From the NCBI RefSeq assembly GCF_001614315.2, contig NZ_LVEG02000011.1, positions 124,001 through 188,000 on the forward strand: 64,000 bases of DNA. The letters are read 5' to 3'. This document shows positions 44,583-53,004 of this stretch, one piece after another. The position numbers were made by a program, and so were the translations under genes. The notes beneath the pieces were generated by a model. It saw only the letters and a list, made by a program, of their open reading frames with translations, did not search any database and had not been told where the DNA came from. Position 1 is the first letter of the stretch; each line of letters begins with the position of its first letter. This DNA is from Halofilum ochraceum. GTDB lineage: Bacteria; Pseudomonadota; Gammaproteobacteria; XJ16; Halofilaceae.

Positions 44583-45002
44583 ATGTTCCACCGTTATCTC
44601 CTCGTCTGCGCCGGTGCACTCGCCCTGAGCCTCGGTTGCAGCGCAGGCGCTACGCAGGCCGGGAAATCCGGTGACGCCACCATCGCCAGGCGCCTGCTCG
44701 ATCTGTTCCAGGGCGCTGCGGATCACGCCGAGCTGCGTCAACGGGCCCGGGCGGCCGGCGTGCAGACCGACGACTACGGCGTCCGCGTGGATATCCAGAC
44801 AGCGGGGCTGCGGTCCGATGACCGCGTCCGGTTCGAATTCGACGGGGTGCGATTGCATCACTTCTCGGTGAAATACGAACGCGTCGCCGCCAGCGTGCGG
44901 GATGTCGATGCACTGCATGCGCTGGCGGCGCTCTCCCCGGTCCGCGCGATCACCCCGGAATACGGCAGCGCCGGACGGAGCGACAACGGAGCTTCGCACT
45001 GA
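44583..45002 (+). CDS. Lipoprotein resembling the prodomain of the protease encoded next to it
   Basis: A 139-residue lipoprotein: signal MFHRYLLVCAGALALSLGC, lipobox Cys19. Residues about 60-125 can be aligned by eye without large gaps to residues about 62-130 of the downstream protease: GVRLHHFSVKYERVAASVRD here against GVRVIAMSRGHARATVAVSD there, then DALHALAALSPVRAITPEYG against ESLRRLAEMSGVRMVAQDFG. In the protease this part lies before the catalytic domain, where subtilisin prodomains sit. Its stop overlaps the protease start (TGATG at 45000-45004), so the two are made together. It may be a membrane-anchored chaperone or inhibitor of that protease. The promoter/palindrome at 44509-44536 lies just upstream. 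Confidence 0.7.
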   Translation: MFHRYLLVCAGALALSLGCSAGATQAGKSGDATIARRLLDLFQGAADHAELRQRARAAGVQTDDYGVRVDIQTAGLRSDDRVRFEFDGVRLHHFSVKYERVAASVRDVDALHALAALSPVRAITPEYGSAGRSDNGASH

Positions 45003-47383
45003 TGCGTTCGGGTCTCCCCATGACGACGGCCCTGCTGCTCGCCGTGCTCCTGCCGGGCGACGGCCTCGCCGCGGACGCGAAGGGCAAGGCGAAAGGCCAG
45101 AACACGCCACCCGGCGTCAGCCGCGGCATCCTGCAGCAGATGGAGACCGCCGGCGTCGCATGGCGCGGCGGCCGCGCGACGGATACGCGCGGCGAAGTGC
45201 GGGCCGACGTCATCCTCGATCCCGGCATGCCCGTTACACGGACCGATCTCGCGGCGGCGGGTGTCCGGGTGATCGCGATGTCGCGAGGGCACGCGCGCGC
45301 CACCGTTGCGGTATCCGATCGCGAGTCCCTGCGCCGTCTTGCCGAGATGTCCGGCGTGCGGATGGTCGCGCAGGACTTCGGCTACCGCCGGCGCGCCGGC
45401 CTGGTTCCGAGCCGGGCGGTGGAGGTCATGAACGTCGACGCCATCAATGGCAGTGACGGCAGCCGTGCGGACCTCGACGGCAGCGGGATCACCGTCGGCA
45501 TCCTGTCCGACAGCATGTCCCGTACCGAGGACAATTCCCCCGGGGATCCGGGGGTGGTCGATGAGGACACCACGTTCGATGGCAAGGATACCGGCAGCAC
45601 GGAAGCGAAGTCCTCGCCCGTTACCATGCGTGGCAGCCGGCCTCAGGACGACGGCGAACTCCCGGCAGAGGTCGAGATCCTGCGTGACGATGCATCCGGG
45701 GAATTGGTCGACGAGGGCGCCGCAATGGCGGAACTCATCCACGACATCGCGCCCGGCGCGGGTATCACGTTTCACACGGCGGTGGCCGGCGGTATCGCCG
45801 GGTTCGCCGATGCCATCGATACGCTGTGTGCGCCCGCAAGCGGCGTCGACGTCGTGGTCGACGACATCGGCTTTCTCGCCGAGCTGATGTACCAGCGCGA
45901 TCCGATCAGCCGCGCGGCCGAGGCATGCGTTGCCCGTGGGGTTCCGTTTTTCTCGGCGGCCGGCAACAGCGGCCAGCGCGCCTTTCGCGAGACGTATGAC
46001 GACCTGCTGGCCTCCGATGACGACGACGGTCGGGAGACCCTGTTTCCGCCCAGTGAACGGGATTTTCATGACTGGGCGGGCGGCAATCCGTATCTCGAAG
46101 TGGAGGTGCCGGCCGATTCGACGGCTACCGCCGTGCTGCAGTGGAACCAGCCGGCGTTGTCCGTGCCCGCGAACACCGGCAACGGTCCGCGCATCGACCT
46201 GGATCTGCTCGCATTCAGCGACCGCTCGCCATTCAGCGTGAACACCACGCTCAGCAGCGTGATCGACCAGAAGGCGGAGACCGCGCGGGACGGGCAGGAT
46301 CCGGTCGAAGTCGTGCGGCTCGACGGGGGGAGTGGCGGGCGCACATTCTATCTGGCCGTCGACCACTGGGCCGGGGCCCAGGACGAGATCCCGCAGGGTA
46401 GCGGCACGCGCCTGGAGTTCCGCCTCGTGTTCTATGAGAGCGGGCGGCGGTCCAGCACCATCCAGTACCTCGACACGATGGGCGGGCCTGATCCCGCGGC
46501 GACGATGTACGGCCACACGGTGGCCACGGGCGTATTCGGAGTGGGTGCGGTGCCGTGGTACGACGCGGGGCGGTATCTCGCTGCCCCCAACACCGGCCCG
46601 AGCGCCAGCCGGATCGATCCGCAGTCCTACACCGCGCTCGGCGGCGCGCTCGAACGGCATTTCCGCCCGGATGGCACCTTCCGGCGCGCCACCCAGGGCC
46701 CGCAGCCGGTCATCGCCGCGACCGATGGCAACAACACCTCGTTCTTCGGGACGCCATGGGATAACACCGGGCTCGAGGACGAAGGTGGCGAGGATGATAC
46801 CCACCCCAATTTCTTCGGCACCTCCGCCGCGGCCCCGAATGCCGCGGCCGTGGCCGCGCTCCTGCTCGAGGACGATGGCACGCTGACGCCGCCGGGCATC
46901 GCCGGCCGGCTCCAGGCCGCTGCAGTCGACGTGACGGGCCGCAACGCCGCTGTGGGCTGTGACGCCGTGACCGGCAGCGGCCTCGTGGATGCCGGTGCCG
47001 CGCTGCTTTCCGGGGATGCCCCACCACGCGCCGATGCCGGGCGGGATCGGTCCGTGGACGCCGGCGACACCGTGACGCTCGATGGCGGTGACAGCACCGA
47101 CAACAATTTCGTCGACAGCTACCGATGGCGCCAGGTCGCCGGTCCGCGGGTCGACCTGACCAGCCCGGCCGGCGCCCGGACCCGCTTCGACGCGCCCGCA
47201 AGGCCGTCGACGGTCGTCTTCGAATTGCGCGTCGGTGACGCCGCCTGTCTGTCGGATTCCGATCGCGTCACGGTGGAGGTGCAAAGCGACGGTGGCGGTG
47301 GCAGTGTCGGCGGGCCTTTGCTGCTGCTCGCGCTGCTGCTGGTTACTCGCGCCCGCATGCCCCCGCGATGCGGAGTAGAATGA
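45002..47383 (+). CDS. Exported subtilase-like serine protease with altered His site (module 1)
   Basis: A 793-residue exported protein: signal peptide (residues 1-23), prodomain-like part (about 62-130), peptidase S8-like domain (about 160-640), Ig/PKD-like domain (GDTVTLDGGDSTDNNFVDSYRWRQVAG) and a C-terminal GGGGSVGG, hydrophobic stretch, Arg end like GlyGly-CTERM. Asp170 (ITVGILSDSM), Asn322 (FFSAAGNSG) and Ser608 (FFGTSAAAPNAAA) match Asp, oxyanion Asn and Ser of subtilases. Where the HGT motif is expected, the sequence reads DEGAAMAELIHDIAPGA (residues 237-253), so Glu238 may replace the His, as in sedolisins, or His247 may serve. It overlaps the lipoprotein gene upstream; an outer-membrane barrel gene follows after 41 bases. 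Confidence 0.8.
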   Translation: MRSGLPMTTALLLAVLLPGDGLAADAKGKAKGQNTPPGVSRGILQQMETAGVAWRGGRATDTRGEVRADVILDPGMPVTRTDLAAAGVRVIAMSRGHARATVAVSDRESLRRLAEMSGVRMVAQDFGYRRRAGLVPSRAVEVMNVDAINGSDGSRADLDGSGITVGILSDSMSRTEDNSPGDPGVVDEDTTFDGKDTGSTEAKSSPVTMRGSRPQDDGELPAEVEILRDDASGELVDEGAAMAELIHDIAPGAGITFHTAVAGGIAGFADAIDTLCAPASGVDVVVDDIGFLAELMYQRDPISRAAEACVARGVPFFSAAGNSGQRAFRETYDDLLASDDDDGRETLFPPSERDFHDWAGGNPYLEVEVPADSTATAVLQWNQPALSVPANTGNGPRIDLDLLAFSDRSPFSVNTTLSSVIDQKAETARDGQDPVEVVRLDGGSGGRTFYLAVDHWAGAQDEIPQGSGTRLEFRLVFYESGRRSSTIQYLDTMGGPDPAATMYGHTVATGVFGVGAVPWYDAGRYLAAPNTGPSASRIDPQSYTALGGALERHFRPDGTFRRATQGPQPVIAATDGNNTSFFGTPWDNTGLEDEGGEDDTHPNFFGTSAAAPNAAAVAALLLEDDGTLTPPGIAGRLQAAAVDVTGRNAAVGCDAVTGSGLVDAGAALLSGDAPPRADAGRDRSVDAGDTVTLDGGDSTDNNFVDSYRWRQVAGPRVDLTSPAGARTRFDAPARPSTVVFELRVGDAACLSDSDRVTVEVQSDGGGGSVGGPLLLLALLLVTRARMPPRCGVE

Positions 47384-47424: not shown

Positions 47425-48084
47425 ATGTCCAGTCGATTCGCACAGGTAGCGTTCCGGACCGTAGTCCTTGCGCTCGCCGGCGCGCTGGCCGTGCCCGCGG
47501 CCCAGGCCAGCCGGACCGGAGTGGATTTCCACTTCGGCACCCTTGGTCTCGGTCTCGGAATTGATGCCCAGGTCAGTCCATACACCGGTTTCCGGTTCGG
47601 ATTCAATCGCTTCAAGACCAGCAGTGACTGGGAAGAGGATGATCTCGATTACGAGGCTGGCATCGACTTCGATACGGTGCACGGACTCCTGGACTGGCAC
47701 CCGTTCGGGGGCAAGTTTCGCCTCACGGGGGGCGTCATGGCGACGGACCATCGCATCGATGCCGCGGCCGACGTGGAAATCGGCGACGAGATCGGTGACG
47801 GCCAGGCGTCGCGGAACGGCCGCCTCGAAGCCGAGGTCAAATTCGAGGAATGGACGCCCTATATCGGCACCGGCTGGGATTGGCGGTTCGATCGCAGCAA
47901 CCTGGAAATGACGCTCGATCTGGGCGTACTGGCCAGGGGCGATCCGGACGTCGAACTGCGCGAGACGAGCGATACCGGGGCCAGCCAGCAGGACCTGAAC
48001 GAGGCGGAAGACGAAATCGAAGACGAATGGTCGGACTACAATCTCTACCCGGTCGTCCAGTTCGGTCTTCTCTACCGGTTCTGA
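47425..48084 (+). CDS. Small outer-membrane beta-barrel protein
   Basis: A 219-residue protein with a Sec signal peptide (VVLALAGALAVPAAQAS, cleavage near residue 30) and alternating hydrophobic/polar strands throughout (VDFHFGTLGLGLGIDAQ, TPYIGTGWDWRFD, LYPVVQFGLLYRF). The last residue is Phe, the insertion signal for the BAM complex. Such patterns fit an 8-10-strand barrel. An acidic helix-like stretch DLNEAEDEIEDEWSDY precedes the last strand. A strong ribosome-binding site (GGAAGGGAG) is present. It may belong to the protease unit upstream (41 bases) and act at the outer membrane with it, for instance in export or anchoring; this is inference. No known family was recognised with certainty. 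Confidence 0.7.
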   Translation: MSSRFAQVAFRTVVLALAGALAVPAAQASRTGVDFHFGTLGLGLGIDAQVSPYTGFRFGFNRFKTSSDWEEDDLDYEAGIDFDTVHGLLDWHPFGGKFRLTGGVMATDHRIDAAADVEIGDEIGDGQASRNGRLEAEVKFEEWTPYIGTGWDWRFDRSNLEMTLDLGVLARGDPDVELRETSDTGASQQDLNEAEDEIEDEWSDYNLYPVVQFGLLYRF

Positions 48085-48328: not shown

Positions 48329-49012
48329 ATGTCCCTCCATGATGCCCTGATCGCCCCGTCCATCCTCGCCGCCGATTTTGCCCGCCTGGGCGAGGAGGTC
48401 GAGAACGTCCTCGCTGCCGGCGCCGATATGGTCCACTTCGACGTCATGGACAATCATTACGTCCCCAACCTGACCATCGGCCCGCTGGTCTGTGAGGCAC
48501 TGCGCAACTACGGAATCACGGCCCCGATCGACGTCCATCTGATGGTCAAACCCGTCGATCGCCTGATCCCGGATTTCGCCAGCGCCGGCGCCGACTGGAT
48601 CACGTTCCACCCGGAGGCGAGCGAGCACGTCGATCGCTCGCTGGCGCTCGCACGCGAACACGGCTGCAGGACAGGCCTCGTGTTCAACCCGGCGACCCCG
48701 CTCGACGTGCTGCGCTATGTCGCCGACAAGGTCGACATGGTCCTGCTGATGTCCGTCAATCCCGGCTTCGGCGGTCAGAAATTCATTCCCCGCACCCTCG
48801 ACAAACTGCGCGAGGCCCGCGCCCTGCTGGACGAACTCGGCAGCGACGCCCGCCTGGAAGTCGACGGCGGCATCAAGACCGCCAACATTGGCGAAGTCGC
48901 CGCCGCCGGCGCCGACACCTTCGTCGCCGGCTCCGCCATCTTCAGCGCGCCGGACTATGCCCAGGTGATCGGCGATATGCGCAACGCGATCGCCGAAGCC
49001 CGTAACGGCTAA
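48329..49012 (+). CDS. rpe: Ribulose-phosphate 3-epimerase
   Basis: A 227-residue TIM-barrel enzyme interconverting ribulose-5-phosphate and xylulose-5-phosphate. Motifs: [36 protein letters not shown] (metal-binding Asp and His), [61 protein letters not shown], all intact. It works with transketolase and RpiA found elsewhere in this window. In many gammaproteobacteria rpe is followed by gph and trpE; here gph comes 3.3 kb later because the second protease module stands between. The start ATG 48329 follows CGGATCGCCGCC with a weak ribosome-binding site. Confidence 0.97.
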
Positions 49013-49281
49013 TCTCGACCGGTATTTTCGACTCTCGTGGACGCTCGGGGATTTCAGGCAGGTTGTACTGCATGGTATGTTCACGACTATAGTCGCGTAG
49101 CGACTCCGGCTCGGTCTCCAGGTCCGCCTGAATCGCGGACCCCGGCCGACCGTGGCGTGGGTCCCTGGCAGCCAGGATGCGCTGCCCCCAGGAGGTGAAC
49201 CGCGCCACCGATTGCATCGAACGAGCGCGCCCGTCTTCCTGACGGTGCATTCCATGGACGGTCAAGCCACAGGGAGTGGAT

Positions 49282-49698
49282 ATGCCCGATATTTCCGTAA
49301 CTTCACGACTCATCCCCGCTACCCTGCTCCGTGCCGGATGCGCCGGACTGCTGTGCCTTCTCGTATCCACGGTGATGGCCTGCGCGACCGCGTCGGGCTC
49401 CGGGCAGGCGCCGGACGCCAGTGAGGCGGAGCGCGTCGAGGGCGAATACGTCGTGGAACTCGCCGGGCGCGACTCGGCTCGCGCGATGCTGGAGCAGGCC
49501 TTTGGCGACCATGGGCTCGAACGAATCGATGCCCTGGAGACGAATCGTGCGCTGTACCGGATTCGCCTGATCTCGGATCCGGGGCCGGATATCGTGCGGG
49601 AGTGGGTCGTCGGGGACGATGCGATCCTTAGGGTCGAGCCGAACTACCGCTATTCCAGTGACGACGCCACCGGCTTATCGGGCGATTTGAAGCCGTAA
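49282..49698 (+). CDS. Lipoprotein resembling the prodomain of the subtilase encoded next to it
   Basis: A 138-residue lipoprotein: long signal with lipobox VMAC, Cys34. Residues about 50-125 resemble the inhibitor-I9-like prodomain at residues about 60-140 of the subtilase that follows: GEYVVELAGRDSARAM, HGLERIDALETNRALYRIRL, and ILRVEPNYRYSSDD here against NEILVTFRNAAADQV, HGDSIGEAVDARPSMARVRI, and VAYAQPNYIYKAQ there. The xPNYxYx ending is the usual end of such prodomains. No protease domain is attached. It ends 181 bases before the subtilase, in the same direction, mirroring the arrangement at 44583-47383. AGGGAG at 49271-49276 supports ATG 49282; GTG 49276 is the other option. Confidence 0.72.
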   Translation: MPDISVTSRLIPATLLRAGCAGLLCLLVSTVMACATASGSGQAPDASEAERVEGEYVVELAGRDSARAMLEQAFGDHGLERIDALETNRALYRIRLISDPGPDIVREWVVGDDAILRVEPNYRYSSDDATGLSGDLKP

Positions 49699-49879
49699 CA
49701 GACCCGGGCAGTCGGGCGTGCTGCTGCATGCCGTTCACCGCCAGTCACCGCAGGCCCATCACAAAAAACGAGAACTTTCGTTGCGCTTCCGCGCGATTCG
49801 GGGGTGTATGTGCGCTCCCACGTGTCAGGCGCGAATGGACATCCCGCAACCAAGCGGGGAATCACAAGGAGGGAGAATA

Positions 49880-52186
49880 ATGGAATCAGTCAAAGCCATC
49901 GGCCATCCAGGTACCGGCGTCGCACTGGCGCTGCTGGTGGGCGTGATGCCATTGGCAGTGCACGGAAAAGCCAGCGGCGGCGCGGTGGCTTCGAGCTCTG
50001 CCCTCGGGGCGGCGGTTTCGCAGACGCAGATGTCGTCGGCAGATGGCCTCGGTGTGCCCGGTGTCGATTACGTTGAGAACGAAATACTCGTCACGTTCAG
50101 AAACGCCGCCGCCGATCAGGTCAGCCGACATGCCGTGCAGGCCCATGGTGACAGCATAGGGGAAGCCGTAGACGCGCGGCCGTCGATGGCCAGAGTCCGT
50201 ATCGGCGGCGGGGAGAGTGTCGCGGATGCGGTGAGGGCCTATCGCCACGATCCCAATGTCGCGTACGCACAGCCCAACTACATCTACAAGGCCCAGGCTA
50301 CGCCGAATGACCCGGACTACGGTGAGCTGTGGGGGCTTGAGAACAACGGTCAATTCGTGAATGGCACGGCCGGTACGGCGGGGCAGGATATCGATGCGGC
50401 TGCCGCCTGGGATCTGGCGACCGACTGCAGCAGCAAGCGTATTGCGGTTCTCGATACCGGAGTAAATTATGGTCATGCCGATCTTGCCGACAACATGTGG
50501 GACGGTGCGTCGAACAGCGGTCGAGATTTTGTCGGCGAAACCAACGATGACGATCCGTTGCCGGATGCAGGGCATCGCCATGGCACCCATGTGGCCGGAG
50601 TGATCGGCGCGGCAGGAGACAATTCCAGCGTGATGACCGGTGTCTGCTGGCAGGCCGAACTCATGAGTGTCCGGGTCCTGGGGGGTAATGGGCTGGGGGT
50701 CACGAGCGATATTATCGAAGGCGTCGACTACGCCGTGAATAATGGGGCAGATCTGATCAACATGAGCCTCGGCCAGGAGGAATTCGACCAGGTTCTGAAG
50801 GATTCCCTCGAAAATGCGCGCGCCAATGGTGTTCTCGTGATCGCAGCGGCGGGAAACGAAGGGGAAAATTCCAATCCGGCCAACGATCCGGTCTATCCAT
50901 GCAGCTTCGATCTCGACAACATCATCTGTGTCGCCGCGCTCGACCAGGATTACAGCCTCGCCGATTTTTCGAATTTCGGTGATACGGCGGTCGATGTGGG
51001 AGCGCCCGGCGTCAATATCCGCAGCGCAATCCCTGGCCCCCGCACGCTGGCGGACTTCGGGGACTGGGTTGGTAATGCTTCCTGGCGTACTGATTCCTTT
51101 TGCGAGCCTGGTGTCAAGATCCTGGTCAATCCGGTCGACTGGTGCGGCGGCGGAACATATACGAATAATCTCGATGCGCGCGCGTACGGGGAGTTCGATC
51201 TGACTGACAGTATCGCCGGCGGTTACACGTATTCCACCGAATACACGCTCGCCGGAAGCGACCTTCTCCAGGCTGCGCACAAAGCCGGTACCAGTCCGGG
51301 GGATCCCTTCGAAGACGGGGTGCTTGACGGTGAGGGCGAGGGTCCCATCGACTCGGATGGGGTCGTCACCGTTTCTGGCAGCATCGCGGATTGCGCTGGC
51401 ACGAACTGCAGTATCGGTTTCCGCCTGGCGACCGATGCAAGCGACGTCGCCAACGGGGTCGCGGTCGCGGGGCTCGTGGTGCGCAAAGTGGTGGATGACA
51501 CTGATGAAACGGGCTTCCTTTCCGGTACCTCGATGGCTACGCCTTATGTCACGGGCATCGCCGCTCTGGCATGGTCCGTGGCTCCCGACAAGGGTTATCG
51601 CGAAATCCGTGCCGCGGTGCTCGAAGGTGGTGACGATGTGATGGCGCTTGATGCCAATACGACGACCGGGCGGGCCGTGGATGCCCTGAAGGCGATCCGG
51701 GAGGCCAATGACCCACCGGTCGCGCAGAGTGAGTCCGCGATGACGGTGGAGAATACGCCGCTGGATGTATCGATTGCGGCCAGTGATCCCAATAACCATT
51801 CCCTCGATTACAGCGTGGCCACGTCGCCGTCCAGCGGTTCGCTGAACCTGTCAGGGAATACGGTCAGCTATACGCCTGATCCCGGTTTTATCGGCAGTGA
51901 CTCGTTTGCAATCGAAGTGGAGGACGGATTTGGCGGTACGGATGTCGCGACGGTGACTCTTGCGGTGGAGGCCGAGGTGACGGACGACGAGCCCGTAGAC
52001 GAGCCCGTAGAAGACGACGGTGATGCCGCTGGCGATGAAGGCGGTGGCAGCAGCGGCGGCGGAGGCGGTGGCGGTGCTGTCGGGGTGCACCTGCTGTATG
52101 CGCTGGTTCTCCTCGGGTTGTATCGGGCCATCGGGAGAGCGCGAGTCCGCAGAGGTGGATCGGCTGAGGATTCGCTGTCGCGCTAG
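49880..52186 (+). CDS. Exported subtilisin-like serine protease (module 2)
   Basis: A 768-residue S8 protease. Parts in order: signal peptide (residues 1-32), prodomain (about 60-140, ending VAYAQPNYIYKAQ), catalytic domain with Asp192 (RIAVLDTGVNYGH), His234 (HRHGTHVAGVIGAA), oxyanion Asn326 (VIAAAGNEGE) and Ser551 (FLSGTSMATPYVTG), all intact. About 180 residues rich in Cys, Asp and Gly are inserted before the Ser motif (FGDWVG to VVDDTDETG). A cadherin-like domain (NDPPVAQSESAMTVENTPLDV) follows, then an acidic linker, a poly-Gly run, a hydrophobic segment and an Arg-rich end, the plan of GlyGly-CTERM proteins. The start at 49880 follows AAGGAGGGAG. It interrupts the usual rpe-gph neighbourhood. 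Confidence 0.93.
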   Translation: MESVKAIGHPGTGVALALLVGVMPLAVHGKASGGAVASSSALGAAVSQTQMSSADGLGVPGVDYVENEILVTFRNAAADQVSRHAVQAHGDSIGEAVDARPSMARVRIGGGESVADAVRAYRHDPNVAYAQPNYIYKAQATPNDPDYGELWGLENNGQFVNGTAGTAGQDIDAAAAWDLATDCSSKRIAVLDTGVNYGHADLADNMWDGASNSGRDFVGETNDDDPLPDAGHRHGTHVAGVIGAAGDNSSVMTGVCWQAELMSVRVLGGNGLGVTSDIIEGVDYAVNNGADLINMSLGQEEFDQVLKDSLENARANGVLVIAAAGNEGENSNPANDPVYPCSFDLDNIICVAALDQDYSLADFSNFGDTAVDVGAPGVNIRSAIPGPRTLADFGDWVGNASWRTDSFCEPGVKILVNPVDWCGGGTYTNNLDARAYGEFDLTDSIAGGYTYSTEYTLAGSDLLQAAHKAGTSPGDPFEDGVLDGEGEGPIDSDGVVTVSGSIADCAGTNCSIGFRLATDASDVANGVAVAGLVVRKVVDDTDETGFLSGTSMATPYVTGIAALAWSVAPDKGYREIRAAVLEGGDDVMALDANTTTGRAVDALKAIREANDPPVAQSESAMTVENTPLDVSIAASDPNNHSLDYSVATSPSSGSLNLSGNTVSYTPDPGFIGSDSFAIEVEDGFGGTDVATVTLAVEAEVTDDEPVDEPVEDDGDAAGDEGGGSSGGGGGGGAVGVHLLYALVLLGLYRAIGRARVRRGGSAEDSLSR

Positions 52187-52332: not shown

Positions 52333-53004
52333 ATGGCTAAAGGCCTGTTGGTCGATCTTGACGGCACGCTGGTCGACAGTGTGCCGGAACTGGCAGTCGC
52401 CCTTGACCGCGTGCTGCGGGACCTCGGGTATGAACCCGCCGGTGCGGACCGCGTCAGGGATTGGGTCGGTGATGGTCTCGATTGCCTCATCCGGCGGGCG
52501 CTGATGGCGGCCCGGGACGAGGAATCCGACGACTCGAGCCTGCGCCGTGCGCGCGCGGATTTCGATACGGCCTACGCCGAGGTGCTGGGGACGATGGCGC
52601 CGCTGTATCCCGGCGTGGTGGAGGGCCTGGATGCCGTGCGGGCGGCCGGGTGGGCGATCGCGTGTATCACCAACAAAGCGCGTATATTCGCGGTGGGTCT
52701 GCTGGGGTCGATTGGCATCGCCGATCGTTTCGATACAGTGATCGCTGGCGACAGCGGTCACGGCACCAAGCCCGCGGCGGCGCCTCTGGAAGCGGCGGCG
52801 CGCAAGCTGGACGTGGCGATCGAGGATTGTGTGATGGTCGGCGACTCGGCGATTGATGTGGCAGCGGCCCGGGCGGCCGGTTGTCAGGCGTGGTGCGTGC
52901 GGACCGGTTACAACCGGGGCGCGCCGCTGGAGGACAGTGCTCCCGACCGCATCTTCGATCGCTTCGATGAACTTGCTGCGGCCGTGACCGCGGAGACGGC
53001 CTGA
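52333..53004 (+). CDS. gph: Phosphoglycolate phosphatase
   Basis: A 223-residue HAD-superfamily phosphatase removing 2-phosphoglycolate. Motif I LLVDLDGTLVDS (nucleophile and acid/base Asp, residues 6-17), motif II CITNKA, motif III GTKPAAAPLEAAARKL and motif IV VMVGDSAIDVAAARAAGC are intact, with a helical cap (residues 20-90) of the Gph type. Its place just before trpE, and normally just after rpe, is that of gph in gammaproteobacteria. GGAGTTCGGT is the probable ribosome-binding site. Phosphoglycolate arises from DNA repair and, in autotrophs, from Rubisco. Confidence 0.93.
   Translation: MAKGLLVDLDGTLVDSVPELAVALDRVLRDLGYEPAGADRVRDWVGDGLDCLIRRALMAARDEESDDSSLRRARADFDTAYAEVLGTMAPLYPGVVEGLDAVRAAGWAIACITNKARIFAVGLLGSIGIADRFDTVIAGDSGHGTKPAAAPLEAAARKLDVAIEDCVMVGDSAIDVAAARAAGCQAWCVRTGYNRGAPLEDSAPDRIFDRFDELAAAVTAETA

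Follow-up and report, generated by a model that had tools for sequence, protein, structure and literature searches.

The window analyzed here is a stretch of 64,000 nucleotides from the gammaproteobacterium Halofilum ochraceum (contig NZ_LVEG02000011.1, positions 124,001 to 188,000), and our subject is module 2, a pair of adjacent genes in this window that encode a small predicted lipoprotein, LP2, and a subtilase of the S8 family. An examination of the DNA letters and their open reading frames alone (hereafter, the sequence-only reading) had placed these genes at 49282-49698 and 49880-52186, and both sets of coordinates were confirmed. LP2 (49282..49698, + strand) comprises 138 amino acids, counted from the ATG at 49282 (an alternative GTG start is at 49276), with the stop at 49698; inspection of the open reading frame, shuffling, profile comparison and structural modeling characterize it as a predicted lipoprotein whose main domain is subtilase-propeptide-like. 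The predicted lipidated residue is Cys34 (codon 49381..49383, + strand), which is preceded by a lipobox-like STVMA and followed at the +2 position by Ala, according to the PROSITE-type lipobox pattern. The propeptide-like domain, delimited by folding and profile (49423..49659, + strand), has the predicted element order β-α-β-β-α-β and closes on the motif PNYRY; alignment of family members reveals a DPG motif (49576..49584, + strand). Searches of LP2 against Pfam, NCBIfam and the sequences in PDB produced no credible match.

The partner gene (49880..52186, + strand) encodes a 768-aa S8 protease, delineated from its ATG and identified by the match to PF00082 (E-value 3.2e-47). The protein carries its own, in-cis prodomain at residues 60-133 (50057..50278, + strand), which matches PF22148, 'Fervidolysin_NPro-like' (hereafter, NPro), with an E-value of 3.2e-11 and 43.9 bits against a gathering score of 21. 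The catalytic domain, located from the open reading frame and Pfam, begins with a part that includes the DTGV and HGTH motifs (50441..51025, + strand) and, by sequence, ends with a part that contains GTSMATP (51503..51622, + strand); an insert domain located between GAPG and GTSMATP (51035..51511, + strand), detected by alignment and profile, marks the subfamily to which this protease belongs. The catalytic domain is followed by a Big_9 Ig-like domain (Pfam; 51707..51961, + strand) and a GlyGly-CTERM-like tail (52040..52183, + strand) that consists of a Gly run, a hydrophobic stretch and an Arg-rich end; this tripartite layout is seen by reading only, and the tail matched no GlyGly-CTERM model in NCBIfam. 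The module is flanked by rpe (48329-49012) and gph (52333-53004), both named by reading, and all these genes are on the + strand.

A lipoprotein family paired with one S8 subfamily

A survey of 369 genomes of the class with LP2 alone as the query, the protease being unused, produced five further LP2-like lipoproteins (hereafter, LPs). The search matched 13 of the 369 genomes, 6 of which contain an LP; the matches L040 and L043-L048, as well as L006, a second match in the LP2 genome itself, were dropped as unrelated frames by reading. An LP profile run over the same genomes added G187, which brings the family to 7 genomes (G000, G037, G047, G123, G187, G242 and G311) from six bacterial families, G047 and G187 belonging to the same genus. 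The profile matched 19 genomes, and the 12 without an LP were not counted: the matches in G010, G023, G066, G069, G170 and G368 are, judged by their hits and by reading, S8-type open frames, the one in G066 being to a second, C-terminal NPro domain, and G009, G126, G182, G204, G274 and G337 likewise stand outside the LP count. Searches confined to the order and family of the window covered 3 genomes, and those in the order of G047, 2 genomes; plasmid records yielded a single, unrelated match. LP2 is a member of an undescribed family of predicted lipoproteins with an invariant DPG motif, found in 7 of the 369 genomes of the class.

In each of these 7 genomes, the LP gene adjoins an S8 gene of the one insert-marked subfamily. 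The LP gene comes first in the window and in G123 and second in the other five genomes; in four of the five protease-first pairs (G242, G047, G311 and G187), the S8 stop and the LP start overlap by 4 bases, and in G037, the two genes are 9 bases apart. A search with the insert alone, using a profile that was built from the LP-adjacent S8 proteins and that of G003 and hence may favor matches of that kind, hit 11 of the 369 genomes, namely, the 7 LP genomes, G003, G160, G270, and G145; the last was dropped because, by reading, it is not an S8 protease, which leaves 10. The co-occurrence of LP and insert-type S8 gives a Fisher p of 7e-13, uncorrected for kinship. The pairing of LP2 with the protease is very probably real, and the two proteins would act as one functional unit. 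The suggestion of the sequence-only reading that the lipoprotein-protease pairs are functional rather than accidental holds up, given the adjacency in 7/7 genomes for LP2 relatives and the 4 pairs among 339 genomes for the type found in module 1 (see below). Its caveat that relatives might generally possess the proteases but not the lipoproteins does not apply to the insert-type S8 proteins, 7/10 of which have an LP, but does describe subtilases at large: among the matches listed in a search with an S8 alignment, all 80 named S8 loci lack both the insert domain and a lipoprotein of the LP family.

Six genomes encode, just upstream of the insert-type S8, a second small lipoprotein that appears FN3-like by reading (L073:9533-9967, L077:5130-5534, L075:9830-10396, L078:3-410, L176:3622-4044 and L177:4020-4499); the two that were scanned against Pfam, L078 and L075, had no match.

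Module 2 is present or absent as a unit. Neither the LP nor the insert-type S8 occurs in either congener (G001 or G002), and the spacing between rpe and gph is 88 bp in G002 compared to 3320 bp in the window. The GC content at third codon positions is 0.684 in the S8 gene and 0.763 in LP2, against 0.768-0.868 in gph, purK, rpe and trpE, in keeping with the arrival of the two genes as a unit by transfer.

Propeptide homology and descent of LP2

The window contains another pair of the same layout but unrelated sequences, module 1 (44583-47383), which consists of the lipoprotein LP1 (44583..45002, + strand; assigned on shuffles, lipobox and relatives), related to the prodomain of the next gene, and an S8-like protease (45002..47383, + strand; open reading frame and Pfam) that overlaps LP1 by one base. 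The mature domains of the two lipoproteins and the two prodomains (Pro1 and Pro2) were compared in a four-way test with 1000 shuffles. The LP1-Pro1 pair gave a z-score of 6.8, with 0 of the 1000 shuffles as high, and LP2-Pro2 a z-score of 4.1, with 5 as high; the remaining pairs were close to zero (LP1-LP2, 0.3; LP1-Pro2, 0.8; LP2-Pro1, 0.4; Pro1-Pro2, -1.3). Only the two matching pairs exceeded the shuffles, so that each lipoprotein is indeed nearer to its own protease than to the other lipoprotein, as the sequence-only reading had it. That reading also described the prodomain resembling LP2 as 'I9-like'; the resemblance stands (z-score 4.1), whereas the label does not, the prodomain being of the NPro type (PF22148) rather than a match to Pfam's I9 model.

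The homology is also seen at the level of profiles. In a one-to-one comparison, a profile of six LPs, LP2 excluded, aligned with a profile of eight NPro prodomains over 76 columns with a probability of 98.2 and an E-value of 4.5e-14, and when the LP profile was run over the 369 genomes, subtilase prodomains ranked behind the LPs themselves. Chance resemblance between the LPs and the prodomains is ruled out by the four-way shuffles together with the profile-profile comparison. Folding of LP2 from its single sequence gave the β-α-β-β-α-β order with a mean predicted local distance difference test score (pLDDT) of 70.5 and a predicted template modeling score (pTM) of 0.58; when a prodomain alignment was supplied, the same order of elements was obtained with a pLDDT of 76.8, although the alignment itself leans to that outcome. 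Taken by profile, LP2 holds a propeptide-like domain that is encoded by its own gene outside of any protease and is homologous to the NPro prodomains.

The origin of this domain is a separate matter. LP2 matched the six other LPs with z-scores of 9.0-17.6, compared to 3.9 for its own prodomain and up to 6.4 for unrelated NPro prodomains. In a tree of 28 domains, from which the partial prodomain of G242 and the miscut row u_L104 were left out, a branch with 95/93 support, recovered in 97% of the bootstrap trees, separates the 7 LPs from all other domains, and the window prodomain groups with other prodomains, several end branches being long. The DPG motif is present in 7/7 LPs but in none of the 22 usable prodomain-like rows (23 in this comparison, which still included the partial G242 prodomain and u_L104) and in none of the 18 secretin tails described below. 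Recent self-duplication of the prodomain is ruled out by the z-scores, the tree and the distribution of DPG; as far as sequence comparison can tell, LP2 is not derived from the prodomain of its own protease. The proposal in the sequence-only reading that the arrangement was made independently, each lipoprotein being a cognate copy, is not supported: LP2 is closer to the LPs of other families than to its own prodomain, shows no preference for the latter over unrelated NPro domains, and belongs to a clade that stands apart. The same data bear on the notion that the lipoprotein is a decayed prodomain duplicate without a function of its own. The low identity to any prodomain would be expected of such a relic, but the invariant motif, the single clade, the spread across six bacterial families and the constant location beside the same S8 subfamily make this explanation highly improbable.

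In module 1, the picture differs in detail. Of 339 genomes, 4, including G002, G179 and G211, have an LP1-type lipoprotein next to a protease of the matching type (8 genomes matched; G172, G197, G242 and G263 are outside the pair count); in G179, the protease is cut by the contig end such that only its start is seen, and in the congener G002, LP1 and the protease sit at the same place as in the window. LP1 matched other LP1s with z-scores of 16-46, compared to 6.8 for Pro1, and the LP1s are closer to one another than to their own prodomains, with the exception of that of G179; in the tree of LP1s and their prodomains, the two kinds are not fully separated. The S8-like protease of module 1 has an unusual active-site region. 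Downstream of it, positions 47425-48084 encode an outer-membrane protein with a weak match to CarO (E-value 5e-9), and a similar gene occupies the same place in G002.

Proposed trans inhibition until secretion

All partner S8 proteins with a whole N-terminus (5/5: the window, G311, G123, G187 and G047) retain their own NPro domain, which indicates that the LP is an extra copy, one that would act in trans, rather than a split prodomain. The LPs of G047, G311 and G187 end 3 residues past the PNxxY-type motif, approximately where a processed propeptide ends. A lipobox-like Cys is present in 6/7 LPs, and in none of these six is the +2 residue Asp. Under the Lol rule, lipoproteins with a residue other than Asp at +2 are directed to the outer membrane, so an outer-membrane location of the LPs is predicted. 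GspD, the secretin of the type II secretion system (T2SS), was over the cut-off in 13/13 genomes tried, and the rhombosortase model TIGR03902 passes its cut-off in the window genome.

The strongest outside clue to how LP2 works comes from Nitrospirota. In 18 of the 148 genomes of this phylum (L096:12-2174 and L227-L243), GspD carries a C-terminal domain of the NPro type, apparently an undescribed domain architecture; in 17/18, PF22148 scores over Pfam's cut-off directly after the Secretin domain, and in L096, the domain was found only by a hidden Markov model (HMM). A control locus, L244, has a GspD without the NPro domain. In the T2SS operon of L096, from the metagenome-assembled genome JdFR-88, which also encodes the propeptide-tailed GspD, an S8 gene lies, by reading, between gspF and gspG. 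The fetched stretch contains a whole S8 gene for 4 of the 18 tailed-GspD loci (L096, L227, L233 and L235) and an S8 fragment at the contig edge for L229. Because GspD has its C-terminal portion on the periplasmic side, close to the outer membrane, the lipoprotein and the secretin fusion would bring the propeptide domain to the same spot. Other NPro arrangements include, in G414, also from Nitrospirota, a gene for a 130-aa NPro protein with an S8 gene after it, and an S8 protease that bears NPro domains at both the N- and the C-terminus, the second one located after a CFI-box-CTERM (G066; L081:3701-6088). Separately, L227:11031-13823 is a single open frame that encodes an S8 protease, CFI-box-CTERM and a GspG pseudopilin.

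The retained in-cis NPro domains, the ends of the LPs, the lipobox with its +2 residue and the Nitrospirota secretins jointly lead to the reading that we consider the most likely and, on balance, probable: LP2 is a trans-propeptide, tethered to the outer membrane, by which the protease is kept inhibited until secretion. Following export and lipidation, LP2 would be taken to the outer membrane, where its propeptide-like domain would bind the S8 catalytic domain in trans and, beside the in-cis prodomain, block its activity for as long as the protease sits in the periplasm prior to type II secretion. Translocation would then separate the two proteins, the protease becoming active at the cell surface, where the GlyGly-CTERM-like tail would anchor it.

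The adjacency and frequent overlap of the LP and S8 genes would also suit a membrane-bound steric foldase that is required for maturation, that is, LP2 acting mainly as a folding chaperone. A precedent is ORF2 of Aeromonas sobria, which is encoded beside asp, is required for active ASP and has its C-terminus in the active site (PMC5638518). However, ASP is described as propeptide-deficient, whereas the partner S8 proteins with a whole N-terminus all have NPro, and three genomes possess the S8 without the LP; we regard a primarily chaperone role as unlikely. Somewhat further down the scale of plausibility, LP2 could be a tether or docking subunit for the protease at the outer membrane or the secretin, with inhibition secondary. 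In the Nitrospirota fusions, the secretion pore itself bears an NPro domain, and most of the partner proteases lack an anchor tail of their own; furthermore, the lipoprotein PrcB of the prtP operon is needed for PrtP, both being found at the surface, according to the accessible portion of the source (PMC8167434). Against a tether, the proteases of the window and G123 already have a GlyGly-like tail, and the propeptide fold itself points toward the active site.

Several observations weigh against inhibition in trans by a tethered LP2. None of the seven LPs matched PF22148 over the gathering score, and LP2 is distant from its own prodomain (z-score 3.9). The top structural matches of the LP2 model are generic ferredoxin-like domains (HMA, ACT and RRM), the prodomain of PCSK1 being one among many neighbors of similar Z, so that the fold comparison fits the propeptide reading without proving it. 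The LP of G123 lacks the lipobox. The universal presence of GspD carries little weight because this protein is common in the class; the rhombosortase passes the cut-off in just 5 of the 13 genomes tried, and the GlyGly tail, present in the S8 proteins of the window and G123, is absent from most of the partners. G003, G160 and G270, which belong to one family and account for 3 of the 10 genomes with an insert-type S8, have no LP, which makes the LP dispensable. Finally, 13 of the 18 tailed-GspD loci show no S8 within the fetched stretch.

Inhibition by a tethered propeptide could be the instance of something broader. We tentatively suggest a general trans-propeptide safety system of Gram-negative bacteria for subtilases exported via the T2SS, in which a propeptide domain, supplied either as a lipoprotein (of the LP1 or LP2 type) or, in Nitrospirota, as a C-terminal GspD fusion, would be positioned on the periplasmic side of the outer membrane and keep the subtilase inactive up to its entry into the pore. 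The question addressed is how a Gram-negative cell escapes digestion by a subtilase that folds in the periplasm before type II secretion, to which a tethered second propeptide and propeptide-bearing secretins offer a concrete, testable answer. A further possible use of the LPs is as selective inhibitors of subtilases.

Comparison with known systems

Searches of the open-licence literature turned up no description of this LP family or of a bacterial propeptide lipoprotein, nor of any secretin that bears a propeptide or I9 domain. PF22148 itself covers the domain of the partner protease, the GspD tails and the stand-alone protein of G414, the LPs being its relatives by profile only. In the excerpts at hand, none of the small proteins that come closest, ORF2, PrcB and SUB1-ProM, is reported to be both lipid-anchored and equipped with a propeptide domain (PMC5638518, PMC8167434, PMC6993865).

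ORF2, which both chaperones and inhibits ASP, a subtilase without a propeptide, resembles LP2 in being encoded next to a subtilase, as the available text has it (PMC5638518); unlike ASP, the partner of LP2 has its own propeptide, and ORF2 and LP2 are compared here by description only. PrcB is, like LP2, a small lipoprotein encoded together with an S8 protease, in this case in the operon for dentilisin of Treponema denticola, but it is stated to have no homologs outside oral Treponema, and the accessible part of the report mentions no propeptide likeness (PMC8167434). On the protease side, the closest parallel is VesB, a rhombosortase-processed protein that leaves via the T2SS and is inactive before export; the window S8 ends, by reading, in a tripartite tail of similar layout, but the section of the VesB paper available mentions no propeptide lipoprotein acting on the protease in trans (PMC6219818).

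The stand-alone propeptides of MEROPS family I9, namely, the yeast protease B inhibitor, POIA1, Arabidopsis SPI-1, the apicomplexan SUB1-ProM and TgMIC5, are, like LP2, small propeptide-like proteins produced from their own genes. According to the available part of the source, such inhibitors occur in fungi, plants and apicomplexans, with SUB1-ProM encoded beside subtilase genes and inhibiting SUB1; these proteins are eukaryotic, and no lipid anchor is described for them there (PMC6993865). In comparison, LP2 is a predicted bacterial lipoprotein that belongs to another sequence family and is perhaps tied to type II secretion.

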